Both the position numbers and the translations under genes were made by a program. 64,000 nt of DNA, from positions 62,001 through 126,000 of the forward strand of contig JANQAE010000004.1 in the NCBI GenBank assembly GCA_024707225.1, read 5' to 3'. The notes below the pieces were generated by a model. The model saw nothing but the letters and a program-made list of their open reading frames with translations. It was not told the DNA's origin and made no database searches. Positions 101-63,756 of this stretch are shown piece by piece (position 1 is the first letter of the stretch; each line of letters starts with the position of its first letter). The DNA is from Dokdonella sp. Lineage in GTDB: Bacteria > Pseudomonadota > Gammaproteobacteria > Xanthomonadales > Rhodanobacteraceae.

Positions 101-955
101 TCACTGCGTGCGCAGCACGTCGCCCGGCAGGAACTGCCAGGTCCGCGTGATGTAGAGCTCGTCGACCTTCTCGTCGGTATCCGGCACGGCCGGGAACGGC
201 GAGGACAGATGGATGCTGCGCTCGGCGGCCTCGTCGAGCGCCTTGTGGCCGCTGGACTTGATCACGTCGACGCTGCGCACGCTGCCGTCGCGGTTGAGGC
301 CGACCGTCATGATGACCTCGCCCTTGAGGTGGTCGCGGCGCGCGTCGTCGGGGTAGTTGAGGTTGCCGACGCGCTCGACGCGGGCGACCCAGGCGCGCAT
401 GTAGGCCGCGAACGCATGCTCGCGCGTATTGGCCGAGATGTACTTGCGCTTGGGTCGCTTGGCGTAGCGCTGCGACTCGCGCTGCACCTCCTCGGCCAGC
501 CGCGCCATCTCGAGCCGGCGCTGCAGCGCCTCGCGCTCGGCGAGTACCGGCACCGGTTCGGTCTCGGGCGCCTCGCGGTCTGTCCGCACCGCGAAGTCCG
601 AGCGCTCGCGCGTCAGCATCTCGGCCTGACGCGCCGTGCTCGGCCGCCGCGCGCCGTCCTCGGTCGGCAGCGGCGCGATACCGTCGGTCGCCTTGGGCAC
701 CGGGCTGGACAACCGCTCGCTCGGCCGCAGCGGCTGGTCGGCGTCGCCGCCGCCGCTGTTGGCGGCCTGGGCCAGGAAGTCGGCCTTGTCGGGCTTCTCG
801 CCGCTGGCCGACTGCACCAGGATCACGTCCAGCGACGGCAGGTGCGGCGCGGCCTTCTCGTACTCGAACGTCAGGCCGAGCGCGATCACGGCGTGCGCGA
901 CCACCGAGAACAGCAGCGTCACGCCGAGCCGGTCGGCGATGCCGGGCGACGCCAT
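101..955 (-). CDS. tonB: TonB-like energy transducer
   Basis: This 284-residue protein has the layout of a TonB-family periplasmic energy transducer. One N-terminal membrane helix (about residues 10-30, after MASPGIADR) is followed by a long charged and proline-containing periplasmic spacer and a C-terminal TonB domain. The domain contains GEVIMTVGLNRDGSVRSVDV near residue 220, then an alpha helix and a final strand. TonB passes proton-motive force from ExbB/ExbD to outer-membrane receptors; no exbBD is visible here. Its ATG shares a base with the gshB stop (TGATG at 957-953), so the two genes are translationally coupled. A tonB-like gene directly after gshB is the usual Xanthomonadales arrangement. 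Confidence 0.82.
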   Translation of the reverse strand: MASPGIADRLGVTLLFSVVAHAVIALGLTFEYEKAAPHLPSLDVILVQSASGEKPDKADFLAQAANSGGGDADQPLRPSERLSSPVPKATDGIAPLPTEDGARRPSTARQAEMLTRERSDFAVRTDREAPETEPVPVLAEREALQRRLEMARLAEEVQRESQRYAKRPKRKYISANTREHAFAAYMRAWVARVERVGNLNYPDDARRDHLKGEVIMTVGLNRDGSVRSVDVIKSSGHKALDEAAERSIHLSSPFPAVPDTDEKVDELYITRTWQFLPGDVLRTQ

Positions 956-2092: not shown

Positions 2093-2126
2093 GCTCGACT
2101 CGGCTTGGTGGTTGGGGAATCCGCAG

Positions 2127-2525
2127 GTGGACGAGGCAAGAACTGACAACCTGGGCGGCCTGAAGGTCATGGTCATCGACGACTCCAAGACCATCCGCCG
2201 TACCGCCGAGACCCTGCTGCGCAAGGAAGGCTGCGACGTCATCACGGCCACCGACGGCTTCGAGGCGCTGGCCAAGATCTCCGACCAGCAGCCGCACATC
2301 ATCTTCGTCGACATCATGATGCCGCGCCTGGACGGCTATCAGACCTGCGCGCTGATCAAGAACAACCAGCTGTTCAAGTCCACGCCGGTCATCATGCTCT
2401 CGTCGAAGGACGGCCTGTTCGACAAGGCGCGCGGACGCATCGTGGGATCCGAGCAATACCTGACCAAACCGTTCACACGTGAGGAACTGCTCGGCGCGAT
2501 CCGCCGGCACGTGGACCTCAAATGA
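2127..2525 (+). CDS. pilG: Twitching motility response regulator PilG
   Basis: Single-domain CheY-like receiver of the Pil-Chp pathway, about 132 residues. It is phosphorylated by ChpA and promotes type IV pilus extension. Visible receiver landmarks are the acidic pair D18/D19 (VMVIDDSKTIRR), phospho-acceptor D62 in FVDIMMPRLDGYQ and K114 in YLTKPF. The sequence is extremely close to what I remember of Pseudomonas PilG, including CALIKNN and KDGLFDK. No ATG precedes the conserved core. I chose GTG 2127 because GGGGAA sits about eight bases upstream; TTG at 2112 is an alternative that adds five residues. First gene of the cluster, 34 bases before pilH. Confidence 0.95.
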   Translation: MDEARTDNLGGLKVMVIDDSKTIRRTAETLLRKEGCDVITATDGFEALAKISDQQPHIIFVDIMMPRLDGYQTCALIKNNQLFKSTPVIMLSSKDGLFDKARGRIVGSEQYLTKPFTREELLGAIRRHVDLK

Positions 2526-2559
2526 GTGGACCGGCCATTCGACGCGATGGGGGCACGCG

Positions 2560-2925
2560 ATGGCACACATATTCATCATCGACGACTCGCCGACGGAAGT
2601 CCGCGTGCTCACCGGCTTTCTCGAGAAGGCCGGGCACCGCGTCAGCAGTGCGCCGAGCGCCGAGGAAGGCATCGACCAGGTGCGCCGGGCGAGGCCCGAC
2701 CTGGTGATCATGGACATCATCATGCCGGGCATGAACGGCTTCCAGGCCACGCGCCAGCTCAGCCGTGACGCCGCCACCTCGGCGATCCCGGTCGTCATGG
2801 TGACCACCAAGTCGATGGAGACCGACCGCATCTGGGCGCTGCGCCAGGGCGCCAAGGCGTTCATGACCAAGCCGGTCGCCGAAAAAGAACTGCTCGGCCA
2901 GATCGACGGCCTCCTGTCGGCCTAG
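2560..2925 (+). CDS. pilH: Twitching motility response regulator PilH
   Basis: A 121-residue stand-alone receiver, the second CheY-like protein of the cluster. In Pseudomonas PilH opposes PilG and favours pilus retraction, partly by draining phosphate from ChpA. Receiver residues are D8/D9 (FIIDDSPTEVR), phospho-acceptor D52 in VIMDIIMPGMNGFQATR, T83/T84 and K104 in FMTKPV. The motif MPGMNGFQATRQLSR is typical of PilH and separates it from PilG. ATG 2560 is chosen because the protein then starts directly at the first beta strand; a GGGGG run lies six bases upstream. It is followed 11 bases later by pilI. Confidence 0.95.
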   Translation: MAHIFIIDDSPTEVRVLTGFLEKAGHRVSSAPSAEEGIDQVRRARPDLVIMDIIMPGMNGFQATRQLSRDAATSAIPVVMVTTKSMETDRIWALRQGAKAFMTKPVAEKELLGQIDGLLSA

Positions 2926-2936
2926 AGGACCCCACG

Positions 2937-3488
2937 ATGTCGACGTCCGCCCCTGCCTTCCTGAGTCCGTTCGAAGCCCTGGCCGAGTACGAGCGCCGCA
3001 GTCTGGCGCACGCCGCCGGCGCGCCCGAACAGGCCGAGGCGCCGGGCCTGTGGCGCGGCATCGGCTTCCGCGTCGGCCAGCGCTATCTGGCCAGCACGAT
3101 CGGCGAGGTCAACGAGATCCTGACGCTGCCGGCGATCGCGATCGTGCCGGGCACGCGGTCGTGGCTGCTCGGCGTCGCCAACGTGCGCGGCAGCCTGGTG
3201 CCGGTGATCGATCTGAAGGATTTCGTCGAGGGCACGCCGACCCAGCTGACCGAGAACAGCCGCGTGCTGATCGTGCGCCAGCAGGCCGGCCGCGTCGGCC
3301 TGCTCGTCGACGAGGTGCTCGGCCAGCGCAGCTTCGCCGACGAGCTGCGCGAGCAGGCGGTGGCCGAGGACGATGCGCGCTACGAGCGCTACGTGCGCGA
3401 GCGCGTGCCGCTCGGCGAGGTGCTCTGGGGCATGTTCAGCATGGCGGCCCTGGTGCGCGCGCCCGAATTCCAGCAAGCGGCGGCGTGA
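2937..3488 (+). CDS. pilI: CheW-like coupling protein PilI
   Basis: A 183-residue protein made almost entirely of one CheW domain, which links the PilJ receptor to the ChpA kinase in the Pil-Chp array. The core includes GFRVGQRYLASTIGEVNEIL, then GTRSWLLGVANVRGSLVPV, the conserved receptor-binding part of the fold, and GLLVDEVLGQR. A GAGGA ribosome site lies upstream of ATG 2937. It sits between pilH and pilJ, the standard order. A 187-base untranslated stretch separates it from pilJ. Confidence 0.92.
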   Translation: MSTSAPAFLSPFEALAEYERRSLAHAAGAPEQAEAPGLWRGIGFRVGQRYLASTIGEVNEILTLPAIAIVPGTRSWLLGVANVRGSLVPVIDLKDFVEGTPTQLTENSRVLIVRQQAGRVGLLVDEVLGQRSFADELREQAVAEDDARYERYVRERVPLGEVLWGMFSMAALVRAPEFQQAAA

Positions 3489-3675
3489 AGCAGCCGCCTC
3501 GCCGCCGCTCGAACAGGCCGCAGCGCGCAGGCGCGCGGCGGAACGCGAAACGGGCTGCGCCGCCGACGGCGGCGCCGGTCACCAGGAGAGTCGTGCCAGG
3601 CATGGCAAGGGGCGTACGGATGTCCTGATGACGCTGATCTGGCCGTATCGAGTTTCACGTTGAGGTAGAGAACCG

Positions 3676-5706
3676 ATGAGCACTACTAGCGGCAATCTGG
3701 CGGCGAAGGAACGGGGCGGCAACTGGTGGCAGATCGTCCTGCTCGGCCTGCTGCTGGCGTTCGTGATCTTCAATTTCGGCTGGATGTACATCAAGAACGG
3801 TCAGGACCGCCAGGCGGTGGCCTACACGACCGAGATCCAGGTGAAATCGCAGGAGCTGGCCAAGTTCGCCTCCGAGGCGGCCAGCGGCAACCTCGATGCG
3901 TTCAACCAGCTCGACGCGCGCCGCAAGGAGATCGACGCGCGCGTGCGCTACCTCAACGAGGGCAACCCCGAGGTCGGCATGCCCGGCTACCAGGGCGAGG
4001 AAGGCGCCAGTGCCGCGCTGGCCAAGCTCACCGACGGCTGGCGCCTGCTGTCGGCCAAGGCGGCCGGGATTCTCAGCCGCAAGGAACTGGTGCTCGACGC
4101 GACCGCGACCGCGTCGGACTTCAACACGCGCATGCCGGTGCTCAACTCGCGCATGAACGAGGTCGTCAACATCCTGACCGACCGCAACGCGCCGGCCTCC
4201 CAGGTCTACATCTCGGCGCGGCAGATGCTGCTGGCCGACCGCATGATGCGCCGCCTGCAGGAAATCCTCGCCGGCGGCCAGAGCGAGGCCGCGGTCGGCG
4301 GCTTCCAGCGCGACGCGCGGCTGTACGGCACGGTGCTGTCGGGTCTGATCAACGGCGCGCCGGAGCTGTCGATCCGGCCGCTCGACAACGCCAACGCGCG
4401 CACGATCCTCGACGACGTCAACGAGCAGTGGGGCATGCTCGGCAATCCGGTGCAGCGCATCATCGACGCCGGCCCCGGCATCGACGAGGTCAAGGCGGCC
4501 TCGATCGACGCGTCCAACGAGAGCGGCAACGTGCTGATGCGCGCCGCCGAGCTCGCCACGGCGATCGAGCGGCTGCCGAACGCGCGCATGCTGCCCAACC
4601 CGATCTTCGGCGCGGTCGCCGGTGCGGCCTCGCTGCTGATGCTGCTGATCCTCGGCTTCAGCCTGATCCGCGACCAGCAGAAGCGCTACCACGTCACCGC
4701 CGAGCTCAACCACCGCAACCAGGAAGCGATTCTGCGCCTGCTCGACGAGATGGGCTCGCTGGCCGAAGGCGACCTGACGGTCAAGGCGACCGTCACCGAG
4801 GACATCACCGGCGCGATCGCCGACTCGGTCAACTTCGCGGTCGAGGCGCTGCGCTCGCTGGTGACGACGATCAACGAGACCGCCGTGCAGGTGGCCGCCG
4901 CCGCGCAGGAGACGCAGGCGACCGCGATGCATCTGGCCGAAGCGGCCGAGCACCAGGCGCAGCAGATCACCTCGGCGTCGGCCGCGGTCAACGAGATCGC
5001 CGTGTCGATCGACGAGGTCTCGCGCAACTCCTCCGAGAGCGCGGACGTCGCGCAGCGGTCGGTGACGATCGCGACCAAGGGCGTGACCGTGGTGCGCCAG
5101 ACGATCGACGGCATGGACTCGATCCGCGACCAGATCCAGGAGACCTCCAAGCGGATCAAGCGCCTGGGTGAGTCCTCGCAGGAAATCGGCTCGATCGTGG
5201 AACTGATCAACGACATCGCCGAACAGACCAATATCCTGGCGCTCAACGCGGCGATCCAGGCCGCGTCGGCCGGTGAGGCCGGTCGCGGCTTCGCGGTGGT
5301 CGCCGACGAGGTGCAGCGGCTGGCCGAACGCTCGGCCGGCGCGACCAAGCGCATCGAGACGCTGGTGCAGACGATTCAGTCCGACACCAACGAGGCGGTC
5401 AGCTCGATGGAGCAGACCACCGCCGAAGTGGTCTCCGGCGCGCGCATGGCCGAGGATGCGGGCCTGGCGCTCGGCGAGATCGAGAAGGTGTCCAACGACC
5501 TGGCGGACCTGATCCAGAACATTTCCACCGCCGCGCGCCAGCAGTCGCTGGCGGCGACCAACATCTCGGCGACGATGAACGTCATTCAGGAAATCACCAC
5601 GCAGACCTCGGTCGGCGCCAGCCAGACCGCCGAATCGATCGGCAACCTCGCCGAGCTCGCGGCGGATCTGCGCCGGTCGGTCGCGGACTTCAAGCTGCCG
5701 GGTTGA
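3676..5706 (+). CDS. pilJ: Type IV pilus methyl-accepting chemoreceptor PilJ
   Basis: A 676-residue inner-membrane receptor. It has a first membrane helix at about 16-36 (IVLLGLLLAFVIFNFGWMY), a large periplasmic domain of PilJ type to about 305, a second helix at about 308-330, a HAMP-like segment and a long cytoplasmic signalling coiled coil. The hairpin tip reads AEQTNILALNAAIQAASAGE near residue 520, the most conserved part of MCPs. PilJ senses surface or pilin state and controls ChpA. The start has GAGGTAGAGAACCG upstream. The C-terminus ends soon after the coiled coil with no CheR-docking pentapeptide. chpA follows 109 bases later. Confidence 0.95.
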   Translation: MSTTSGNLAAKERGGNWWQIVLLGLLLAFVIFNFGWMYIKNGQDRQAVAYTTEIQVKSQELAKFASEAASGNLDAFNQLDARRKEIDARVRYLNEGNPEVGMPGYQGEEGASAALAKLTDGWRLLSAKAAGILSRKELVLDATATASDFNTRMPVLNSRMNEVVNILTDRNAPASQVYISARQMLLADRMMRRLQEILAGGQSEAAVGGFQRDARLYGTVLSGLINGAPELSIRPLDNANARTILDDVNEQWGMLGNPVQRIIDAGPGIDEVKAASIDASNESGNVLMRAAELATAIERLPNARMLPNPIFGAVAGAASLLMLLILGFSLIRDQQKRYHVTAELNHRNQEAILRLLDEMGSLAEGDLTVKATVTEDITGAIADSVNFAVEALRSLVTTINETAVQVAAAAQETQATAMHLAEAAEHQAQQITSASAAVNEIAVSIDEVSRNSSESADVAQRSVTIATKGVTVVRQTIDGMDSIRDQIQETSKRIKRLGESSQEIGSIVELINDIAEQTNILALNAAIQAASAGEAGRGFAVVADEVQRLAERSAGATKRIETLVQTIQSDTNEAVSSMEQTTAEVVSGARMAEDAGLALGEIEKVSNDLADLIQNISTAARQQSLAATNISATMNVIQEITTQTSVGASQTAESIGNLAELAADLRRSVADFKLPG

Positions 5707-5815
5707 TGCCGGCAGCCGACACCGCCGGAAAGTCCCATGGAGGCATGATGATTGCATTCGTGTCCATCATGCGCAGCGAAGGCGACTTCCCTGCCCGTCG
5801 CCCAGAGAACGAACG

Positions 5816-8800
5816 ATGAAGCTGCAAGACGACATCGAATTCACGAGCCTCGGCTGGATCAAGCACGAGCTCGACTCGACGCTGCGCCAGGCGCAGGAAG
5901 CGCTGGAAGCCTACGTCGACACGCCGGCCGACAGCAGCCTGATGCGGATCTGCGGCGGTCACCTGCACCAGGTGCAGGGCACCCTGCGGATGATCGAGCT
6001 GTACGGCGCGGCGCTGGTCGTGGAGGAGATGGAGCAGCTGGTCAAGGCCCTGCTCGACGATGCGATCGGCGAGCGCGACGAGGCCTATTCGGTGCTGATG
6101 CGCGGCATCGTGCAGCTGCCGGACTACCTGGAGCGCCTGCAGGGCGGCCACAAGGACATCCCGATCGTCCTGCTGCCGCTGCTCAACGACCTGCGCGCGT
6201 GCCGCGGCGAGAAGCTGCTGTCCGAGTCGGCGCTGTTCGCGCCGGACATGGCGGTCGAGCTGCCGGCCGGCGCCGCCGGCGCGGCGCAGCCGCTGCCGGT
6301 CGAGCAGCAGCGCCAGGCCGCCTCGCGGCTGCGCCTGGCCTATCAGGCCAGCCTGCTGCGCTGGTTCCGCGGCGAGGACGAGGCGGCCGCGCTGCAGCGG
6401 CTGATCGGCGTGCTCGACCGCCTGCGCGAGCTGTCCAGCCGCGTCGAGCCGCGCCGGCTGTGGTGGGTCGCCGCGGCCGTGGTCGAGGCGCTGCAGGACC
6501 GCGCGCTCGACGTCGGCGTCACGCTGAAGCTGCTGTTCGGCCGCATCGACCTGGAGATCAAGCGCTTCGCCGAAGGCGGCGAGGAGGCCCTGCACGCGCG
6601 GCCGCCGCGCGAGCTGCTGCAGAACCTGCTCTATTACGTCGCCAACTCCGGCGGCCGCGGCGGCCGTGTCAGCGAAGTCCGCGCGACCTACCAGCTCGAC
6701 GGCCTGCTGCCGAGCGCTCGCGAGGTCGAGCACGCGCAGGGGGCGATGACCGGTCACAACCGCAACCTGCTCGACACCGTGTCGGCGGCGATCAAGGACG
6801 ACCTGCTGCGCGTCAAGGAAGTGCTCGACATCTTCCTGCGCACGCGCGACGCCGATCCGGCGACGCTCGGTGCGCAGACCGAGATCCTCGACCGCGTCGG
6901 CGACACGCTCGGCATGCTCGGCCTCGGCGTGCCGCGCCGCGTCGTCGGCGAGCAGCGCCAGGTCATCGACGAGATCGCCAACGGCAAGCGGCCGGTCGAC
7001 GAAAGCAGCCTGCTCGACGTCGCCGGCGCCCTGCTCTACGTGGAAGCCTCGCTGGACGATCACATCGAGCGGCTCGGCGCCGGCGGTCCCGGCGACGAGG
7101 ACGCCGCCGATGGCAAGGAGCTGCCGCGCGCCGAGGTGCGCAAGATTCTCGACGCGCTGATGCGCGAGGCGGCGATCAACATCCAGCAGGCCAAGCACGA
7201 CATCGTCGCGTTCATCGAGTCGCCGTGGGACCACAGCCGCGTCGAGCTGATCCCGCGCCTGCTCGAGGAGATCGCCGGCGCGCTGCGCATGCTCGGCCTG
7301 GAGGCCGCCGCGGACCTGATGCCGGGCGTGGTGCGCTTCGTCGAGATCGAGCTGATCCGGCACCGGCGCATCCCGACCGTCGAACAGATGGACAAGCTGG
7401 CCGACGCGCTGGCCTCGATCGAATACTACCTGGAGGCCACGCGCGAGCAGCGCAGCGGTCGCGAGCGCATTCTCGACGTCACGCGCGAGAGCCTGGCCTC
7501 GCTCGGCTACTGGCCGGTGCCGCCTGCGCTCGAGGAGCCGGCCGTCGCGCCCGAACCGGCGATCGAACCGGCGCCGGCCGGCGCAGCGCCCGAGCCGGCG
7601 GCGGCCTCGTTCGCGGCGGACCCCGCCTGGGCCTTCGACACACCGGCCTTGGCCGACGCATCGATCGATCCCGCAGCGGTCGAGCTGCCGTCGGTCGAAC
7701 TCGATACCGCGGTCGAGATCGCGCCCGGCGACGACCTGCGCGACCTGATCCTCGGCAGCACCCACAGCCCCGAGCCGCACCGCCACGAGATGGCCGGCCT
7801 GCGGCTAACCGATACCGGTTCGGCACCGCCGGCCGACGAGCAGACCTGGATCGAGATCGAGGAAGAGATCGAGGAGGAGCTGCCGGGCGTCGAACCGCTC
7901 GCGCTCGGCTTCCAGAGCGCCGCCTCCGACGACATCGACGACGACATCCGCGAGGTGTTTCTCGACGAGGTCCAGGACGAGGTCGACAGCCTGCAGCGCG
8001 TGCTGCCGGGCTGGAGCGCCCAGCTCGGCGATCTGGACGCGGTCAAGACGATCCGCCGCTCGTTCCACACGCTCAAGGGGTCCGGCCGCCTGGTCGGCGC
8101 TTTGACGCTCGGCGAGTTCAGCTGGAAGATCGAGAACATGCTCAATCGCGTGCTCGATCGGTCGATCGAGCCGTCGCGCGCGGTGTTCGCGCTGACCCAG
8201 ACCGCGATTACGACGCTGCCGGACCTGCTCGCCGCGCTGCGCGGCGAGCGCGCGGCGGCAGCCGACCTCGGCGGCATCATGGAGACCGCCGACCGGCTGG
8301 CCGCCGGCGAGGAAGCCTGGCTGCCGCCGGCCGCTGCGCGCCGCACCGTCAAGCGCGTGGTGCGCCGGCGCGTCCCGGCGGTCTGGCCGCATGCCGAAGC
8401 CGATCGCATCGAGGCCGATACGTCCGGGACGATCGCCGCGGACACCGCGACGAGCGGTCCTGCGATCGATCCGGTGCTGTACGAGATCCTGCGCAACGAG
8501 ACCGATGCGCATCTGGCGACGGTCGAGTCCTGGCTGGAATCGGGCGATGCCCTGCGCCCGGGCGTCGACGATCCGGTGCAACGTGCCGTGCACACGCTGC
8601 ACGGCGCGATCGCGATGGTCGACATCCCGGTGCTGACCGCCGTGCTGTCGCCGCTGGAAGGCTATCTGAAGCGGCTCGGCGCACAGTCCGCGCCGCTGCC
8701 GCCGGCCGGGCGCGAAGCGCTCGGCGACGCCTGCCGCGTGACGCGCGAGGTGATCGCGCGGATCGGCGTCGGCGACCTGTCGGTGCCCGACACGGCCGAT

Positions 8801-11800
8801 CTGGCCGAGCGCCTGATCTCGCTGCGCGATGCGCTGCCGGAGCCCGGCTTCGATCTGCTGCGCGCCGGTCTCGACGAGGAGATCGTCGAGCCGGTGGCGG
8901 TCGCAGCGACCGCGGAAACGGTCCAGAGCGAGGAGGCGCCGGCCGACACGGAGCGGTTCGATCAAGAGCGCTTCGATGCAGAGCCGATCGACGCCGACGA
9001 CACGGTCGCCGACCAGACGGACGCGGCGGCGGCCGATGCCATCGCAGCATCCGAACCGCGCCAGCGCGCTGCGGACCTCGACACGACCGGCGCCGAGCTC
9101 GAGGACTTCACCGACATCCTGATCGCGCGCTACACCGACGCCGACGCCGACGCCGGTACTCGCCAAGCCAGCGCAGCACCGCCGGCGGCCGGCACTGGCT
9201 CCCCGCTCGAGGCCCTGTTCGCGAGTGCGCCGCCGCCATCGCCGCCGGCCGATTCCGCCGATCGCCCCGATGCGCTGGCCGACGAAATCGAATGGCTGCT
9301 CGCCGAATCGGCGGCCGCACCGGCGATCGGCAGCGACGCCGACGAGGATGCGGACGAGCCGACCGAGATCGAGCTGAGCACCGACGACGCCACCTGGCTG
9401 TCCGACCTCGACGCCGAGGCGACGCCGGTCGTATCCGACGGCCAGGCATCGCCGCCGCAGTCCGAGGCGACACCGGCCGACGCGCCGAGGTTCGAGCCGT
9501 ACCGGCTGCCGGCATTCGACGTCGACGAGCCGGCCGCCGAGGCCGGGACCGCGCCGCCGGAACCGGTGGCGTCCGACACGACGCTCGAAGCGGACGATGC
9601 ACCGCAGCCGGCCGCGACATCGGCACCGGCGGCCGAACCGGCGCCGGCCGCCGCGTCGACGCGCTGGTGGGATGCCGAGCGCGAGACACCGCCGATTCCG
9701 GACGATCCGCTGCCCGAAGGGCCGCTCGCGCTCGAGGACGCCGACGAGGACCTGCTCGAGATCTTCGTCCAGGAAGCCAGTGACATCCTCGATCATTCCG
9801 ACTCGCTGGTCGCGCGCCTGCACGAGACGCCCGAGGCCTTCGATCTGCTGTCGGGCCTGCAGCGCGACCTGCACACGCTCAAGGGCGGCGCGCGCATGGC
9901 CGGCCTGACGCCGATCGGCGATCTCAGCCACGCGATGGAATCGCTGCTCGAGTCGATCCATGCCGGCTCGCGCCGCATGGACCGCGCCGCGATCGAGTCG
10001 TTCGAACGCGGCTTCGACCGCCTGCACGGCCTGGTCCAGCGTGTCGGCCAGCGCCAGGCGATCGCGATGCCGCAACATGCGATCGCACGCTTCGAGCAAC
10101 TCGTGGCCGGCCAGACACTGGCCGCCGAAGCCGACGGCGCCGAGATGCCGCAGCCGGTCGCCGCTCCTGCCGTAGCGAGCGCGCCGAGCGCGCCGGCGAC
10201 CGCGGCACCGGCCCTCGCGCCGGCGGCCGACGACGACGAGACGATGCGCGCGTCGCAGGAGATGATCCGCGTCCGCTCCGAGCTGGTCGATTCGCTGGTC
10301 AACTACGCCGGCGAGGTGTCGATCTACCGCTCGCGCCTCGAACAGCAGATCGCCTCGTTCCGCTTCAACCTCGTCGAGTTCGAGCAGACCGTCAACCGTC
10401 TGCGCGAGCAGCTGCGCAAGCTCGAGATCGAAACCGAGGCGCAGATCATCGCGCGCTACCAGCGCGAGAACGAGGAGTCCGGCGCCGCGACGTTCGACCC
10501 GCTCGAGCTCGACCGCTTCTCGCAGCTGCAGCAGTACTCGCGCGCGCTCGGCGAGTCGGTCTCGGACCTGGTCTCGATCCAGGGCGTGTTCGACGAACTG
10601 ACGCGCCAGTCCGAGACCCTGCTGCTGCAGCAGTCGCGCGTCAGCTCGGACCTGCACGAAGGCCTGATGCGCACGCGCATGGTCACGTTCGATTCGCTGG
10701 TGCCGACGCTGCGCCGCACGCTGCGCCAGGCCGCCCAGGAGCTCGGCAAGCGCGCCCAGCTGCGCGTCGAGGGCGCGCAGGGCGAAATGGACCGCAACCT
10801 GCTCGAGCGCATGAAGGCGCCGTTCGAGCACATGCTGCGCAATGCGCTCGCGCACGGCATCGAGCCGACCGAGCAGCGCCTGGCCGCCGGCAAGCCGGCC
10901 GAGGGCACCGTCAACATCGCGCTCAGCCGCGAGGCGACCGAGGTCGTGCTGAAGGTGTCCGACGACGGCCGCGGCCTGGACCTCGCCGCGATCCGCCGCC
11001 GTGCGATCGAGCGCGGCCTGCTCAAGGCCGACGCGCAGCTGTCCGACCGCGATCTGCAGGGCTTCATCCTCGAAAGCGGCTTCTCGACGACCGACCAGAT
11101 CACCCAGCTGGCCGGCCGCGGCGTCGGCATGGACGTGGTCGCCAGCGAGATCAAGCAGCTCGGCGGCACGCTCGGCATCGACTCGCAGGCCGGCCGCGGC
11201 ACCGCGTTCACGGTCCGCCTGCCGTTCACGCTGGCGGTCACCCAGGCGATCCTGGTCAGGCTCGGCGAGGCGACCTACGCGATCCCGATGTCCTCGGTGC
11301 AGGGCGTCGTGCGCATCGACCGCGACGAGCTGCGCCAGCGCCTGCTCGCCGGCAATACACGCTATGCGTTCGGCGGCGAGGATTTCCATTTCCACGACCT
11401 GTCGCAGCTGCTCGGCGTGCCGGGCGGTCGCAACCTCGACGACACCCAGCTGCCGCTGCTGATGACGCGCACCGGCGATCAGCGCGCGGCGATCCGTGTC
11501 GACGCGGTGATCGGCTCGCGCGAGGTCGTCGTCAAGTCGGTCGGTCCGCAGATCAGCTCGATCCCGGGCATCTTCGGTGCGACGATCATGGGCGACGGCT
11601 CGGTCGTGATGATTCTCGACCTCGCCCCGCTGGTCCGTCGCGCGGCCGCGCTGCGCGAGGACCAGGGCGCCGAAGGCGGCACGATCCTGCCGGACCTGAT
11701 GATTCCCGAGGCCCAGGCCGAGATCCGCCAGCAGCCGCTGGTCATGGTCGTCGACGACTCGATCACGATGCGCAAGGTCACCACGCGCGTGCTCGAGCGC

Positions 11801-12103
11801 GCCAGCCTCGAGGTCGTCACCGCGAAGGACGGCCTGGACGCGGTCGAGAAGCTGCAGGACCGCGTGCCGGACCTGATGCTGCTCGACATCGAGATGCCGC
11901 GCATGGACGGCTACGAGCTGGCCACCTACATGCGCAACGACCTGCGCCTGCGCGAGGTGCCGATCATCATGATCACCTCGCGCACCGGCGAGAAGCATCG
12001 CCAGCGCGCGCTGGAACTCGGCGTGCAGCGCTACCTCGGCAAGCCGTACCAGGAGGCCGACCTGATGCAGAACGTCGTCGAGGTGCTGGGGCTCGAACCG
12101 TGA
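5816..12103 (+). CDS. chpA: Hybrid chemosensory histidine kinase ChpA
   Basis: A 2095-residue CheA-type kinase that drives PilG/PilH phosphorylation. The N-terminus carries degenerate HPt-like segments (H51 in HLHQVQGTLRM, as in Pseudomonas ChpA, then further helical bundles to about residue 560). Three recognisable HPt sites follow: H751 (FHTLKGSGRLVG), H926 (VHTLHGAIAMVD, lacking the usual lysine) and H1353 (LHTLKGGARMAG). They are separated by acidic Ala/Pro/Glu linkers. The kinase core has the N box at N1676 (HMLRNALAHGIEP), DDGRGLDL and GRGVGMDVV, then a CheW domain. The C-terminal receiver starts at about 1976, with D1980/D1981 and acceptor D2024. The stop overlaps the chpB start. Confidence 0.95.
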   Translation: MKLQDDIEFTSLGWIKHELDSTLRQAQEALEAYVDTPADSSLMRICGGHLHQVQGTLRMIELYGAALVVEEMEQLVKALLDDAIGERDEAYSVLMRGIVQLPDYLERLQGGHKDIPIVLLPLLNDLRACRGEKLLSESALFAPDMAVELPAGAAGAAQPLPVEQQRQAASRLRLAYQASLLRWFRGEDEAAALQRLIGVLDRLRELSSRVEPRRLWWVAAAVVEALQDRALDVGVTLKLLFGRIDLEIKRFAEGGEEALHARPPRELLQNLLYYVANSGGRGGRVSEVRATYQLDGLLPSAREVEHAQGAMTGHNRNLLDTVSAAIKDDLLRVKEVLDIFLRTRDADPATLGAQTEILDRVGDTLGMLGLGVPRRVVGEQRQVIDEIANGKRPVDESSLLDVAGALLYVEASLDDHIERLGAGGPGDEDAADGKELPRAEVRKILDALMREAAINIQQAKHDIVAFIESPWDHSRVELIPRLLEEIAGALRMLGLEAAADLMPGVVRFVEIELIRHRRIPTVEQMDKLADALASIEYYLEATREQRSGRERILDVTRESLASLGYWPVPPALEEPAVAPEPAIEPAPAGAAPEPAAASFAADPAWAFDTPALADASIDPAAVELPSVELDTAVEIAPGDDLRDLILGSTHSPEPHRHEMAGLRLTDTGSAPPADEQTWIEIEEEIEEELPGVEPLALGFQSAASDDIDDDIREVFLDEVQDEVDSLQRVLPGWSAQLGDLDAVKTIRRSFHTLKGSGRLVGALTLGEFSWKIENMLNRVLDRSIEPSRAVFALTQTAITTLPDLLAALRGERAAAADLGGIMETADRLAAGEEAWLPPAAARRTVKRVVRRRVPAVWPHAEADRIEADTSGTIAADTATSGPAIDPVLYEILRNETDAHLATVESWLESGDALRPGVDDPVQRAVHTLHGAIAMVDIPVLTAVLSPLEGYLKRLGAQSAPLPPAGREALGDACRVTREVIARIGVGDLSVPDTADLAERLISLRDALPEPGFDLLRAGLDEEIVEPVAVAATAETVQSEEAPADTERFDQERFDAEPIDADDTVADQTDAAAADAIAASEPRQRAADLDTTGAELEDFTDILIARYTDADADAGTRQASAAPPAAGTGSPLEALFASAPPPSPPADSADRPDALADEIEWLLAESAAAPAIGSDADEDADEPTEIELSTDDATWLSDLDAEATPVVSDGQASPPQSEATPADAPRFEPYRLPAFDVDEPAAEAGTAPPEPVASDTTLEADDAPQPAATSAPAAEPAPAAASTRWWDAERETPPIPDDPLPEGPLALEDADEDLLEIFVQEASDILDHSDSLVARLHETPEAFDLLSGLQRDLHTLKGGARMAGLTPIGDLSHAMESLLESIHAGSRRMDRAAIESFERGFDRLHGLVQRVGQRQAIAMPQHAIARFEQLVAGQTLAAEADGAEMPQPVAAPAVASAPSAPATAAPALAPAADDDETMRASQEMIRVRSELVDSLVNYAGEVSIYRSRLEQQIASFRFNLVEFEQTVNRLREQLRKLEIETEAQIIARYQRENEESGAATFDPLELDRFSQLQQYSRALGESVSDLVSIQGVFDELTRQSETLLLQQSRVSSDLHEGLMRTRMVTFDSLVPTLRRTLRQAAQELGKRAQLRVEGAQGEMDRNLLERMKAPFEHMLRNALAHGIEPTEQRLAAGKPAEGTVNIALSREATEVVLKVSDDGRGLDLAAIRRRAIERGLLKADAQLSDRDLQGFILESGFSTTDQITQLAGRGVGMDVVASEIKQLGGTLGIDSQAGRGTAFTVRLPFTLAVTQAILVRLGEATYAIPMSSVQGVVRIDRDELRQRLLAGNTRYAFGGEDFHFHDLSQLLGVPGGRNLDDTQLPLLMTRTGDQRAAIRVDAVIGSREVVVKSVGPQISSIPGIFGATIMGDGSVVMILDLAPLVRRAAALREDQGAEGGTILPDLMIPEAQAEIRQQPLVMVVDDSITMRKVTTRVLERASLEVVTAKDGLDAVEKLQDRVPDLMLLDIEMPRMDGYELATYMRNDLRLREVPIIMITSRTGEKHRQRALELGVQRYLGKPYQEADLMQNVVEVLGLEP

Positions 12104-14150
12104 TGGCTACCGAGACGTCCGTTCCCGTCGCCCTGCTGTTCCAGACCGACGAGCTCGGCCGGCATCTGCGCACCGTGCTCAACGACATCGGCACGCCGAT
12201 CGTCTACGAATCGACGACGCATGCGATCGACCGCGTCTCGCTCGAGCAGTCCGGTGCGCGCGTCGTGATCGTCAATCTCGACTCGGAGCTCGACGGCGAT
12301 CTCGACCAGGTCTACGACCTGCTCGGTGACGGACCGTATCGCGTGCTGATCAACGAAGGTCACGTGTCGAGCCGGCTTTCCGGCTGGGACCAGGCGCGCT
12401 GGATGCGCCACCTCGCCGCCAAGATCCTCGACGCGCCGGCCGTGACCGATCCGCCGCGACCGGCCGATGCCGAGCCCGTGCCGGCCCCGCCGGCGCCGTC
12501 GGGCGCCACGCCGGCGGACGAGCCCGTCGTCGCGATCGACGGGTCCGCCGTCTCGCAGTCCGCGACCGCCGAGACCGCGATCGGCCGTCTCGAGGACGCC
12601 GTCCCGGTGCCGCCCGAAGCGCCCGAAGCGCTCGAAGCGCTCGAAGCGGCAGACCTGCGCGTGGCCGACATCGACGAGGACGAGCCGTTCTCGTTCGACG
12701 ATCTCGACGTCGCGCCGCCGCTGGCGCCGCCGCCGGCCGGCGAGGCGACGCAGACGCGCGCGTACGAGACGCTCGAGGCCGTGTCGCTCGACATCGAGCC
12801 GTTCGATGTCGACGCTCTCGCCGACGCGCCGCACGCATCGACCGATGCCGCGCCGCTCGATCCCGGGCCGCTCGATCCCGGGCCGCTCGATCTCGATCGG
12901 TTCGACGCGCCGCTCGTATCCGATGCATCCCCGTTCGATCCGGGCGCCGCATCGCGCCTCACCGCATCGGCCGCGGCCGATGCGGACGCGCAGGTCGATG
13001 CCGTCGCGTTCTCCGACGAGGAGGCGCAGCTGTTCGCGGCGTTCGATACCGCCGGCGACGGCGAGCCGGCGCGGCGCGACGACGCGCCCGTGGCCGATCT
13101 CGACGACTGGCTGTCGCGCGCTATGGCCGATGATCCGGCTGCCGCGATCGAGCGGCCGCACTGGGAAGACGAGCCGGCCCAGACCGAGGCGCCGGTGGCG
13201 CGCCTCGACACGCAGCCGGTCTTCTCCGACAGCTTCCAGCCGGCCGGCGACGATCCGAAGCCGGCCGTTCCCGCGGTACCGGACTGGAGCCTGGTCTCGT
13301 TCGATCTCGACGACGAGGAGGCGCCGCAGACGCCGCCGCCGGCGCCGTTCGGCGTCGAGAAGATTTCCGCCGCCGAGTACATGGCGGCCGCCTCGCCGTA
13401 TGCCGGCGAAGCAGCCGAGGAGACGATCGAGACCGACGGCCTGTCGCTCGAGCTGGTGCCGATCGAGGACGCGATCGCGCCGCAGCCGGCGCATGCGACG
13501 CACGAGGTCTGGCTGGACGCCGATGCGGCCGCCGCGCCGCGGCCGTGTCCGATGCGAAGGCGGCCGCCGCGGTCGACCGCGTCGTCGTGCTCTGCGCGTC
13601 GATCGGCGGCCCCGAGGCGATACGCGAGGTGATCGGCGCGATACCGAAGCGCTATCCGGCGCTGTTCGTGCTGGTCCAGCACATGGGCGAGGAATTCATC
13701 GACCTGCTCGCGCAGCAGCTGGCGCGGGCGACCGCGCTGACGGTACGCGTGCCGAGCCACGGCGAGCGCGTCGCGGCCGGCGACCTGCTGATCGCACCGC
13801 CGAACCGCGAGCTGCGCGTCCAGCGCGACGGCACCGTGCTGATCCAGCCGCAGAACCCGCCGGCACCGCATCAGCCCTCGATCGACCGGATCCTCGAGTC
13901 GCTCGCCGCGACGTTCGGCGCCGACGTGCTGGCGATCGTGTTCTCGGGCATGTCCGACGACGGCGCGGCCGGATGCCGCCACGTCGCCGAGGCCGGCGGC
14001 CAGGTCTGGGTGCAGGACCCGGCGAGCTGCGTCGTCAGCGAGATGGTCGAGAACGCGCTGGCGACCGGCGTCGTGCGGTTCCAGGGATCGCCGACCTCGC
14101 TGGCCGAGCACCTGGCGAGCCTGCGCGACGGCGCCGAGGCGCGCGCCTGA
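12103..14150 (+). CDS. chpB: ChpB/CheB-type methylesterase, frameshifted in this sequence
   Basis: The first frame (12103 to about 13541) encodes a degenerate receiver-like N-terminus (VALLFQTDELGRHLRTVL) and a long acidic low-complexity linker. The CheB catalytic domain then continues in a different frame to 14150, with the serine in CASIGGPEA, histidine in VLVQHMGEE and aspartate in FSGMSDDGAAG all present. Adding one G in the tract CGCGGCCG near 13541-13543 joins the frames and gives a 682-residue protein, so one base is missing or lost. The enzyme would remove methyl groups from PilJ glutamates. ATG 12103 overlaps the chpA stop (TGATG). The linker is much longer than I expect for ChpB. 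Alternatively the esterase is translated separately from ATG 13545. Confidence 0.8.
12853..12882 (+). repeat. Tandem 15-bp repeat in the chpB linker
   Basis: Two perfect copies of CCGCTCGATCCCGGG plus a 9-base partial third copy, encoding PLDPG repeats. Nearby 12613-12648 holds a second tandem array of 9-base units coding PEA/LEA. Both lie in the low-complexity linker of chpB. Confidence 0.8.
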
Positions 14151-14206
14151 TGAAGCGGCCCGCGTTCGCCGCCCCGCCCCCCTTCGACTCGAGGACCTCC
14201 GCTCCC

Positions 14207-14671
14207 ATGGCTGATCTGCCCCGCGAAATCCGTGGCGTTCTGATACCGGTCAGCAACGGCCGCGTGCTGCTGCCGAATGCGACCGTGGCCGAGGTCATCA
14301 CCTACGCGACGCCCGAGCGCATCGCCGATGCGCCGGACTGGCTGCTCGGACGCCTCGCCTGGCGCGGCTGGCGCCTGCCGCTGTTCTCGTACTCGATGCT
14401 GACGCAGGCCAGCCAGACCGAGGGCTACAGCAATGCCAAGGTCGCGGTGCTCAAGGCGCTCGGCGGCCAGGCGCGCATGCCGTTCCTGGCGCTGCTGACG
14501 CAGGGCTTCCCGCGCCTGGTGACGGTCACGCAGGATCTGCTGATTCCCAGCGGCGACGCGCGCGAGCGCCGCACCGGCGTACTGGCCGAAGTGCTGGTGC
14601 GCGACGATCACGCGCAGATCCCCGATCTGGAAGCGATCGAAGGCCTGGTCGCGCGCGCACTCGCGGCCTGA
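14207..14671 (+). CDS. chpC: CheW-like accessory protein ChpC
   Basis: A CheW-superfamily adaptor of about 154 residues, last gene of the pil-chp cluster. The sequence begins ADLPREIRGVLIPVSNGRVL and runs LPNATVAEVITYATPERI, then DWLLGRLAWRGWRLPLFSY, which matches the ChpC pattern of a conserved W-R-G turn before a hydrophobic strand. In Pseudomonas ChpC couples additional receptors to ChpA. ATG 14207 has GAGGA 11 bases upstream. An earlier in-frame ATG at 14150 overlaps the chpB stop (TGATG) and would add 19 residues; both starts are possible. No terminator is visible before the ispB promoter. Confidence 0.88.
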   Translation: MADLPREIRGVLIPVSNGRVLLPNATVAEVITYATPERIADAPDWLLGRLAWRGWRLPLFSYSMLTQASQTEGYSNAKVAVLKALGGQARMPFLALLTQGFPRLVTVTQDLLIPSGDARERRTGVLAEVLVRDDHAQIPDLEAIEGLVARALAA

Positions 14672-14704
14672 AACCGCGGCGGACCGATGCGCGCGCACGC
14701 GCCG

Positions 14705-17777: not shown

Positions 17778-18185
17778 TCAGTGATGCGCACGCTCGAGCA
17801 GGTCGGCGACGTCGGCCATGCACTCGCGCACCGCGAACAGGATCGAGCCGAGCACGGTCTCGGTCGTGGTCTGCACGCACAGCAGCAGCGGCAGCTGGGC
17901 ATCGGCGATGTCGCGGACCAGCAGCCGGCCGAGCGTGCCGTTGATGATGATGTCGGTGCACGCGCCGCTCGAGGTCTCGGCGGCCATCGAGCTGCCGAGC
18001 GCCTGCAGCGAGCTGGCCATCGCGGCCACGCGGGCCGGCGACAGCGCGCCCTGACGCTGCGCGTAGGCGACCTCGAACCCGTCGTGCGTCGCGACGACGG
18101 CCGCCAGGATGCTCTCGTGTTCGGCCAGCAGATCCTGCAGCCGTCGCGTCAGCAAGGCGGTCTCGACCTTGTTCATCGGCGTCAT
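17778..18185 (-). CDS. Roadblock/LC7 domain protein
   Basis: A 135-residue protein consisting of one Roadblock/LC7 domain. Landmarks are an N-terminal helix (LLTRRLQDLLAEHESILAAV), the strand VATHDGFEVAYA, a central helix with ARVAAMASSLQALGSSMAAE, and strands around DIIINGTLGRLLVRDI. Such proteins are dimeric partners of small GTPases (MglB, CvnB). ATG 18185 has GGAG seven bases upstream; a second ATG lies three codons later. There is no GTPase gene next to it; the only one in the window is at 63202-63756. It lies 3.5 kb downstream of the pilus chemosensory genes. Confidence 0.85.
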   Translation of the reverse strand: MTPMNKVETALLTRRLQDLLAEHESILAAVVATHDGFEVAYAQRQGALSPARVAAMASSLQALGSSMAAETSSGACTDIIINGTLGRLLVRDIADAQLPLLLCVQTTTETVLGSILFAVRECMADVADLLERAHH

Positions 18186-62047: not shown

Positions 62048-62146
62048 CAGCCGGGACTTCTCGAAAGCTTGCGCCAGCGCGCGTTTTGGCCCGGATCGCG
62101 CATGGCTCAATACGGCGCGCGGGACAGCCTGGCAGGAGATGGTCCG

Positions 62147-63202
62147 ATGTCAATGCTCAATGGATTGATCGAATCGCCGCCGGCCGCAGCCGCCGCGGCA
62201 CCCGGCCGCCACGCGGACGGCGGCACGCCGCTGCTCGTGGCGGCATACGGGCTCGAAGCGAGCGAGCTGCATACGCTCGGTGCGATCCTGCACGTGCTCA
62301 AGGCGCGCACCGAGGCCGCGTGGGAACTGGGCGACCTCGACCACGCCGATTTCGTGATCGCGCCGCTCGCGCTGGCGCGCGATCCCGATCAGGGCCGGCC
62401 GCTGCGCGGCCGCAACGTCATTCCGCTGGTCGCCGACGACGGGCCGCTGCCGCGCGAGGGCGATCTGGTCCTGACCTCGCCGATCCGCGTGATGGCCGTG
62501 CTCGACGTGCTCAACGTCGCCTCGCGCCGCCACGGACAGGCACCCCATGCGCCGCGCGAGGCGCCGGCCCAGGCCGAGGCGTGTGCGCAGGCCGATTCCA
62601 GTCTGGCGGCGGTCCTGACCGCATCGCTGGCGCGCACCCGCGACGACCACGTGCTGCGGATCCGCATTCTCAGTGCCGGCACGATCTACGTCTGGCCGGC
62701 CGAGCGCGTGTTCCACGTCGATTTCCAGCTCTCGATGCTGCCGCGCATCGTGATGGAACGCCGGTTCGTCATGACCACCGCACCGGTCCAGGCGCCCGAA
62801 GTGGCCGCGATCCGGTCCCAGGCGATGCCGCTGACGCCGCTGCTGTGGAGCATCGGCATCGCGCAGACGCGCTGCGCCGAACCCGCGGCGACCGACGCCT
62901 ACCGCCTGCTGCGCTGGCCGGAGTTCGATCGCCTGCCGCACGAGATGGGCCATCTGCGCCTGTGCGGCGTCATGGCCGGGGCCGCCTGGACCGTCGAGGA
63001 CCTGCAGCGGCACAGCGGCCTGCCGGCGCCGTTCGTCGCCCGTTTCCTGCGCGCCTGCGTGGCCTGCGGTTACGCGGCGGCCGAGCAGCGCGCAGCGCAG
63101 ACACCGCCGGCTGCGGTACGGTCGGTGCGTCCGCCGACGACCGCCGAGGGCGGCCTGCTCGAGCGGCTGTGGCGCCGTCTCGGCTTCGGAGCCGCCGCCT
63201 GA
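62147..63202 (+). CDS. Receiver-like plus winged-helix protein coupled to a GTPase
   Basis: A 351-residue protein of no named family. Residues 27-130 read like a degenerate response-regulator domain (LLVAAYGLEASELHTLGAIL, DFVIAPLALA, VIPLVADDGPL) with no phospho-aspartate. The middle has RIRILSAGTIYVWPAERVFH. Residues 268-315 look like a winged helix (AWTVEDLQRHSGLPAPFVAR then FLRACVACGYAAAEQ). ATG 62147 has AGGAG eight bases upstream. Its stop overlaps the GTPase ATG (TGATG). The domain order recalls CvnC-type partners of conservon GTPases. Confidence 0.72.
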   Translation: MSMLNGLIESPPAAAAAAPGRHADGGTPLLVAAYGLEASELHTLGAILHVLKARTEAAWELGDLDHADFVIAPLALARDPDQGRPLRGRNVIPLVADDGPLPREGDLVLTSPIRVMAVLDVLNVASRRHGQAPHAPREAPAQAEACAQADSSLAAVLTASLARTRDDHVLRIRILSAGTIYVWPAERVFHVDFQLSMLPRIVMERRFVMTTAPVQAPEVAAIRSQAMPLTPLLWSIGIAQTRCAEPAATDAYRLLRWPEFDRLPHEMGHLRLCGVMAGAAWTVEDLQRHSGLPAPFVARFLRACVACGYAAAEQRAAQTPPAAVRSVRPPTTAEGGLLERLWRRLGFGAAA

Positions 63203-63756
63203 TGGCCCGTGAACACGTCATCCTGTTCGCCGGACCGATGGGGGCCGGCAAGACCACGGCGATCGCCAGCCTCAGCGAGATTCCGGTCGTGCGCACCGAG
63301 GCGCACAACACCGACACCGGGCGCAATGCCAAGGCGACCACGACGGTCGCGCTCGACTACGGCGAGATCACGCTGGCCGACGGCGACAAGGTGCGCCTGT
63401 ACGGCCTGCCCGGCCAGGAGCGCTTCGATTTCATGTGGCGCATCCTGGAGCCACGCGCGATCGGCATGGTGCTGCTGATCGACAACGCCGGCGCCGATCC
63501 GCTCGCCGACCTCGATCACTATCTGAACGCGTTCGCGCGCTTCCGCGACCGCGGCGCCGTGGTGATCGGCATCACGCGCACCGACCTCGCCCGGCAGCCG
63601 GCGATCGACGACTACTACGCCCGTCTGCGCAGCCGCGGCCTGTTCCTGCCGGTGCTCGAGGTCGACCCGCGCGACCCGGCGCAGGCCGGTGTCCTGCTCT
63701 CGGCGCTGATCGTCTCGATCGAGGCGCGCAGCGACGCGGCCGGCGCGTCGGCCTGA
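63202..63756 (+). CDS. CvnD/MglA-like small GTPase
   Basis: A 184-residue GTP-binding protein. G1 is GPMGAGKTT (11-19), a TTT stretch at 47-49 is G2, GLPGQERF at 68-75 is G3 without the usual aspartate, and TRTD (125-128) is G4. LYGLPGQERFDFMW and TEAHNTDTG match the GTPases of actinobacterial conservons. Such GTPases act with Roadblock partners; the only Roadblock here is 45 kb away. Translationally coupled to the preceding gene. Confidence 0.85.
   Translation: MAREHVILFAGPMGAGKTTAIASLSEIPVVRTEAHNTDTGRNAKATTTVALDYGEITLADGDKVRLYGLPGQERFDFMWRILEPRAIGMVLLIDNAGADPLADLDHYLNAFARFRDRGAVVIGITRTDLARQPAIDDYYARLRSRGLFLPVLEVDPRDPAQAGVLLSALIVSIEARSDAAGASA

Follow-up and report, generated by a model that had tools for sequence, protein, structure and literature searches.

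Results

A coupled gene pair in Dokdonella sp.

The DNA analysed here, hereafter the window, is a stretch of 64,000 nt from Dokdonella sp. (Rhodanobacteraceae; GCA_024707225.1, contig JANQAE010000004.1, forward-strand positions 62,001-126,000, labelled G000:C2:62001-126000 in our genome set). Three of its genes are considered:

62147..63202, plus strand: partner protein (PAR), 351 aa, open throughout
63202..63756, plus strand: small MglA-type (Group 3) GTPase, 184 aa
17778..18185, minus strand: Roadblock/LC7 protein (ROB, MglB-type), probable displaced cognate of the GTPase, with the start codon at 18185 or 18176

Both frames of the pair are open where the initial annotation had placed them, and GPMGAGKTT and LYGLPGQERFDFMW are both found in the GTPase translation. 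The translational overlap that it described is equally present, as the ATG of the GTPase gene overlaps the TGA of the partner gene (TGATG); AGGAG precedes the partner gene at 62134-62138. A second genome of the genus (G004) has the same gene order, with the pair beside the same xerD-like gene and identities of 85% for the GTPase and 67% for the partner. Between these two genomes, dN/dS is 0.20 for the GTPase and 0.31 for the partner. Moreover, a partner homologue lies at most 400 bases upstream of the GTPase at 91 loci, a count in which at least one place was entered twice (L040 is L090). Because of the conserved order, the dN/dS values, and the number of partner-GTPase loci, the gene pair is considered real and more than a chance association. 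It encodes a bacterial Ras-like molecular switch and a protein that is likely to regulate it. All names of neighbouring genes are by-eye readings; the upstream gene on the opposite strand resembles xerD and the frame from 63958 resembles dxs. A CvnA-D operon is not present at this locus, and no Roadblock gene adjoins the GTPase within the locus stretch.

The GTPase and its family

Group 3 of the MglA-like GTPases was defined computationally in 2014 in beta- and gammaproteobacteria (Wuichet and Sogaard-Andersen, PMC4316618; this and the other papers are cited from excerpted text). Its reported traits are a GTPGQ-type G3 motif, a G4 motif often devoid of lysine, a DAR-type G5 motif, a neighbouring protein with a receiver-like N-terminus and a winged-helix C-terminus, and typically one or two MglB genes coupled in the neighbourhood. 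The G3 motif of the window GTPase is GLPGQ, of the G-T-PGQ rather than the DxxGQ kind and with Leu replacing Thr; KATTTV places Thr, not an Arg finger, after G2; G4 is TRTD, without Lys; and G5 is DPR (D-x-R). Its G1, G3, and G5 motifs are as in relatives; G-x-PGQ and D-x-R each occur in 92 of the 93 partner-linked GTPases (GLPGQ in 12), while the G4 pattern found no match in 13 of the 93 and Lys occurs in a few. As a single-domain protein of 184 aa, it is inside the Group 3 limit of 240 aa or less. Pfam assigns it to ATP_bind_1 (1e-10), and a sequence search of the PDB returned weak matches to Rab-type chains (best E 0.0018). All Group 3 features examined are present except an adjacent Roadblock gene.

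In a tree of 106 of the 121 GTPase rows (the other 15 were chosen near-duplicates or had fewer than 140 residues), the window GTPase stands among the partner-linked GTPases and the three CvnD proteins form a separate clade (100/100); deep forks are weak in many places, and Snodgrassella L104 served as stand-in for the published Group 3 list. The row nearest to the GTPases of the window and G004 is L131, a partner-GTPase-Roadblock set on a MAG contig labelled Actinomycetota, which is probably a misbinned proteobacterial contig. A GTPase match was obtained in 66 of 369 sampled genomes of the class.

The initial annotation had named the pair conservon-like and described it as keeping two of the four conservon parts. 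The assignment to small GTPases of the MglA/CvnD kind is upheld. A conservon (MglA Group 2) that was acquired by transfer and then lost its kinase and CvnC would share the GTPase motifs, which are common to MglA Groups 2-5 (as is a conserved Asp-Gly in the coupled MglB; PMC4316618), and would contribute the same types of parts. We nevertheless hold this origin to be extremely improbable: the GTPase is set apart from the three CvnD proteins, the partner has receiver-like and middle domains and no DUF742 match, and comparable partner-GTPase pairs occur in many beta- and gammaproteobacteria. Conservon membership itself was rejected on the GTPase tree and gene content, with genes resembling xerD and dxs, not a kinase, as neighbours. 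The gene pair is a Group 3 MglA system, and instead of two remaining conservon parts we see a system that is sister to the conservon and has its components at separate places.

The partner protein

The partner was divided into the following predicted parts:

62225..62536, plus strand: receiver-like domain (residues ~27-130), from alignment, motif counts, and the AlphaFold2 model
partner residues ~150-245, plus strand: middle alpha/beta domain, from the AlphaFold2 model
62942..63088, plus strand: winged helix with few basic residues (residues ~266-314), from the AlphaFold2 model and composition
partner residues 337-344, plus strand: C-terminal helix, from the AlphaFold2 model

With an alignment of 36 sequences, AlphaFold2 modelled the whole partner with a pLDDT of 81 and residues 146-318 alone with a pLDDT of 90 and a pTM of 0.82. 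This model and the receiver-type motifs of relatives suggest a receiver-like domain followed by a winged helix, in line with the first description of the protein. Support from the structural comparison is weak: receiver and winged-helix domains (and BRCT) were among the best 50 Foldseek rows for the whole partner, led by a TIR domain at E 0.01, but neither the whole protein nor its C-terminal part had a PDB match at E <= 0.001. The C-terminal part matched the RPC39 winged helix best (E 0.1, prob 0.99), and chains of the GATOR1/SEA complexes took 9 of its best 50 rows (prob 0.23-0.95, E 0.42 or worse), probably through winged-helix similarity. A PDB sequence search with the partner returned nothing up to E 1.

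A comparison with DUF742 had also been suggested. In Pfam, DUF742 matched neither the partner nor any of the 36 aligned members, and the profile score for CvnC was scarcely above those for IclR and MarR. The partner winged helix scored 29.7 against CvnC, 27.8 against IclR, and 27.6 against MarR by hhalign (6 of the 53 control loci, 3 of 23 for IclR and 3 of 30 for MarR, were left out for insufficient length). Specific homology of partner and CvnC was dropped because the two controls score nearly as high, although the CvnC score exceeded all 100 column shuffles; CvnC itself aligns with IclR profiles at an hhalign prob of 91.

It was proposed in 2014 that the partner is a transcription factor (PMC4316618), in which case the winged helix would bind DNA under the control of the GTPase and Roadblock proteins. 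The predicted layout of a receiver-like domain and a winged helix does resemble that of response regulators. However, the net charge of the HTH region is near 0, and its basic residues (3.6 K+R per 42 positions, n=87) are about half those of IclR (7.3, n=20) and MarR (8.6, n=27) and as few as in CvnC, by a rough matching of columns through profile alignments. Furthermore, a Pfam search to E 1 gave the partner a single match, HTH_IclR, under its cut-off, and among the 36 aligned partners no HTH family matches more than one or two. The composition makes a DNA-binding output less probable, and we regard a transcription factor as rather unlikely.

For the middle domain, PATAN (DUF4388) was the best of the profiles tried, yet the hhalign match is weak (P 0.006, prob 6; score 19.4 against 12.4 for the top of 100 column shuffles) and Pfam gave no PATAN match in the 36 aligned partners. 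A PATAN-like middle domain is offered as a lead only.

Receiver residues and locus classes

The V/I/L/F-D-x-D motif is present in 25 of the 36 aligned partners and a Lys before the conserved Pro in 28, and the window protein has neither: aligned by eye, Pro stands where the phosphoacceptor Asp is expected, and Ser111 replaces Lys before Pro112. Among the 91 loci, the joint receiver pattern is found at 27 of 33 with the order PAR-GTP-X-ROB, compared with 1 of 38 with adjacent ROB, 2 of 14 with ROB upstream, and 1 of 6 without ROB (Fisher 9e-13 for the first two classes, whose loci are related). On reading of the sequences, the single positive among the adjacent-ROB loci (L112) looks false and one negative of the PAR-GTP-X-ROB class (L123) seems to be a positive that the pattern missed. 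Some of the negative partners match only from beyond profile position 70 and so have little or no receiver part, namely 5 of the 37 adjacent-ROB negatives, 4 of the 6 PAR-GTP-X-ROB negatives, and most of the ROB-upstream ones. The missing phosphoacceptor Asp and Lys are a trait of nearly all adjacent-ROB loci and not peculiar to the window locus, and because the loci are related, the loss may represent one or few events.

The X gene between GTPase and Roadblock (L083, L085, L087, L104, and others) encodes about 215 aa. At the loci inspected, its protein profile resembles a winged helix at the N-terminus and a Roadblock at the C-terminus; for the X protein of L085, Pfam returned nothing up to E 0.1.

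Roadblock genes in relatives

The co-occurrence expected from the first reading of the locus is clear within the family. The GTPase is found in 38 of 147 family genomes (E <= 1e-5) and a Robl_LC7 match in 32 (E <= 0.01, 29 above the cut-off), and the Roadblock accompanies the GTPase in 31 of these 38 genomes against 1 of the other 109 (Fisher 6e-24, with genomes that are not independent); the lone match has an E of 0.003. Of the seven exceptions, two (G068, G109) proved to have a Roadblock near the GTPase when a custom-built profile was used. In G030, of the same genus, partner and GTPase are present (L074), but no Roadblock was found in the locus stretch, nor by Robl_LC7 in the genome.

Across 41 GTPase loci of the family, ROB is downstream at 27, upstream at 10, and absent from the stretch at 4. 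The conserved Asp-Gly is present in 102 of 108 ROB stretches overall. A second Roadblock protein, rob2, occurs at 55 of 123 loci. It is a Roadblock relative by profile comparison (P 1e-7, 98 columns), although in Pfam neither of two rob2 proteins matched Robl_LC7. It follows ROB at 23 of the 27 downstream-type loci (3 have it upstream of the partner and 1 lacks it) and at 9 of the 10 upstream-type loci, so that the usual orders are PAR-GTP-ROB-rob2 and ROB-rob2-PAR-GTP. By these counts, most relatives in the family have a [partner-GTPase] unit next to a [ROB-rob2] unit, with either of them first.

Elsewhere, at three actinobacterial MAG loci (L141, L143, L145) a Roadblock gene is followed by genes for a PATAN (DUF4388)-like protein and an MglA-type GTPase, and the next gene at L143 and L145 resembles, by eye, a PilB/GspE-type N-terminus.

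The displaced Roadblock

The initial annotation had noted a Roadblock protein elsewhere in the window, and the gene at 17778-18185 is indeed one (Robl_LC7 28.6 bits, cut-off 23; HDGFE carries the conserved Asp-Gly). In the window and in G004, ROB is on the opposite strand 45-47 kb from the GTPase, in the same gene neighbourhood, and since G004 is one contig, a break in the assembly does not explain the split. Searches of G004 gave a single match each for the GTPase and for Robl_LC7, with ROB-rob2 at the equivalent displaced place and rob2 beside ROB (L059 9406-9747); a permissive profile search did not find rob2 in the window.

In a ROB tree of 39 rows, the ROB proteins of the window and G004 cluster with 17 downstream-type ROBs (96/89), and ten upstream-type ROBs form another clade (97/81) that includes a second copy from the Dokdonella genome, on contig C1; ten more downstream-type ROBs fall outside the group of the window ROB, and long branches were flagged by the tree program. 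The family GTPase tree likewise unites the upstream-type GTPases and the C1 copy (99/98) and excludes that of the window. This C1 module (L005:9333-11870) consists of a Roadblock, a second Roadblock, a partner that is short (239 aa) and lacks the receiver-like part, and a GTPase 43% identical to that of the window; beside it, on the opposite strand, L005:546-8687 encodes a repetitive protein of 2713 aa with DUF11-type repeats by eye. These relationships make the ROB at 17778-18185 the probable cognate of the window GTPase. By strand logic, a single 45-kb inversion would account for the split; an outgroup with an intact operon at this place was not found in the genome stretches examined.

It is also conceivable that the module is decaying, with rob2 and the receiver site lost after the split, a faster-evolving Roadblock, and a switch that may no longer function. 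The dN/dS of ROB between the window and G004 is 0.44, compared with 0.16-0.19 for three neighbouring genes, which could reflect relaxed constraint, and rob2 (within the window) and the receiver residues are missing as this explanation would have it. Against it, the GTPase has a dN/dS of only 0.20 and retains G1, G3, and G5, the split is common to two species with GTPases 83-85% identical, and the missing receiver residues characterize a whole class of loci. We consider decay quite improbable.

A Pil-Chp chemosensory cluster, read by eye (two receivers, a CheW-like protein, a chemoreceptor, a very long ChpA-like kinase, and a CheB-like protein), occupies window positions 2112-14700, only some kb away from the ROB gene at 17778-18185. 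This proximity is possibly a hint at pilus output, or chance.

Discussion

The reading we favour, with restrained confidence, sees in the two genes the GTPase half of a Group 3 MglA switch, with ROB as its MglB-type partner, PAR as a regulator with a receiver-like input, and the operon split. In this switch, the GTPase would cycle between GDP and GTP forms, with the ROB at 17778-18185 acting as its GAP or co-regulator. By analogy with conservon-type systems, in which CvnB/MfpD is reported as a GAP and CvnC/MfpC as a GEF (PMC13343842, PMC13015309), PAR would contact the GTPase through its middle and winged-helix part and most likely favour nucleotide exchange, the activity reported for MfpC, a CvnC homologue. 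Whether as exchange factor or as adaptor, it would be gated by the receiver-like domain, the input arm of PAR. In most PAR-GTP-X-ROB relatives, that domain keeps the residues needed for phosphorylation, whereas in the window protein it would be a fixed or protein-docking input, because these residues are absent here and at nearly all loci of its class. The parts that share an operon in relatives stand here as separate [partner-GTPase] and [Roadblock] units at a distance of 45 kb, with rob2 missing from the window. An output in type IV pili or polarity is a guess from analogy. All 147 family genomes have PilT, so its co-occurrence neither supports nor opposes a pilus link.

The window resembles Group 3 as described in PMC4316618 in its GTPase motifs, its receiver-like/winged-helix neighbour, its MglB-type Roadblock, and its occurrence in beta- and gammaproteobacteria. 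It differs in that the Roadblock is 45 kb away rather than adjacent, rob2 is missing from the window, the receiver residues are absent, and the partner model shows a middle domain. The Group 3 mgl locus of Snodgrassella likewise combines one mglA with several mglB, one of them distant from the operon, but there the distant gene is a third copy and two mglB remain coupled, whereas no Roadblock is left at the window GTPase locus (PMC11112851). A mutation in that distant mglB was accompanied by motile flares on soft agar, for which the authors of the study suggest a connection with type IV pili; in the literature surveyed, as excerpted, the experimental hints for Group 3 are this mutation and re-read Tn-seq data in Snodgrassella (PMC11112851).

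The conservon/AGPS systems (CvnA-D, Mfp; PMC13343842, PMC13015309) share a small GTPase, a Roadblock, and a winged-helix-like third protein. The window pair differs in lacking an adjoining kinase and a DUF742 match, in the clade of its GTPase, and in the receiver-like domain of its partner. The MglA/MglB/RomR-RomX system of M. xanthus is alike in that a GTPase and a Roadblock GAP are joined by an exchange-factor complex with a receiver-containing protein, but its MglA belongs to Group 1 and has a TVPGQ G3 motif with an arginine finger, unlike the window GTPase (PMC4316618).

It is tempting to speculate that members of the partner family share their ancestry with CvnC/MfpC, have a PATAN-like middle domain, and serve MglA-type GTPases as winged-helix exchange factors under the control of the receiver, a proposal to which we give a low probability. 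If true, MglA Groups 2 and 3 (perhaps 1 and 5) would share a plan of GTPase, Roadblock, and winged-helix/PATAN regulator, and the weak structural matches to GATOR1/SEA, complexes acting on Rag GTPases, would reflect a deep relation and not generic winged-helix similarity.

The system had been put forward as under-described. Group 3 and its partner were already defined in 2014 (PMC4316618), but the family has been little tested. New here are the two-unit plan of relatives, the 45-47 kb split in the window and G004, and the contrast in receiver residues between classes. Group 3 MglA-like GTPases are spread over many beta- and gammaproteobacteria and have scarcely been tested by experiment. The natural separation of the two gene units at this locus helps to assign the partners, and relatives with and without an intact receiver site raise the concrete question of whether the receiver gates the GTPase.
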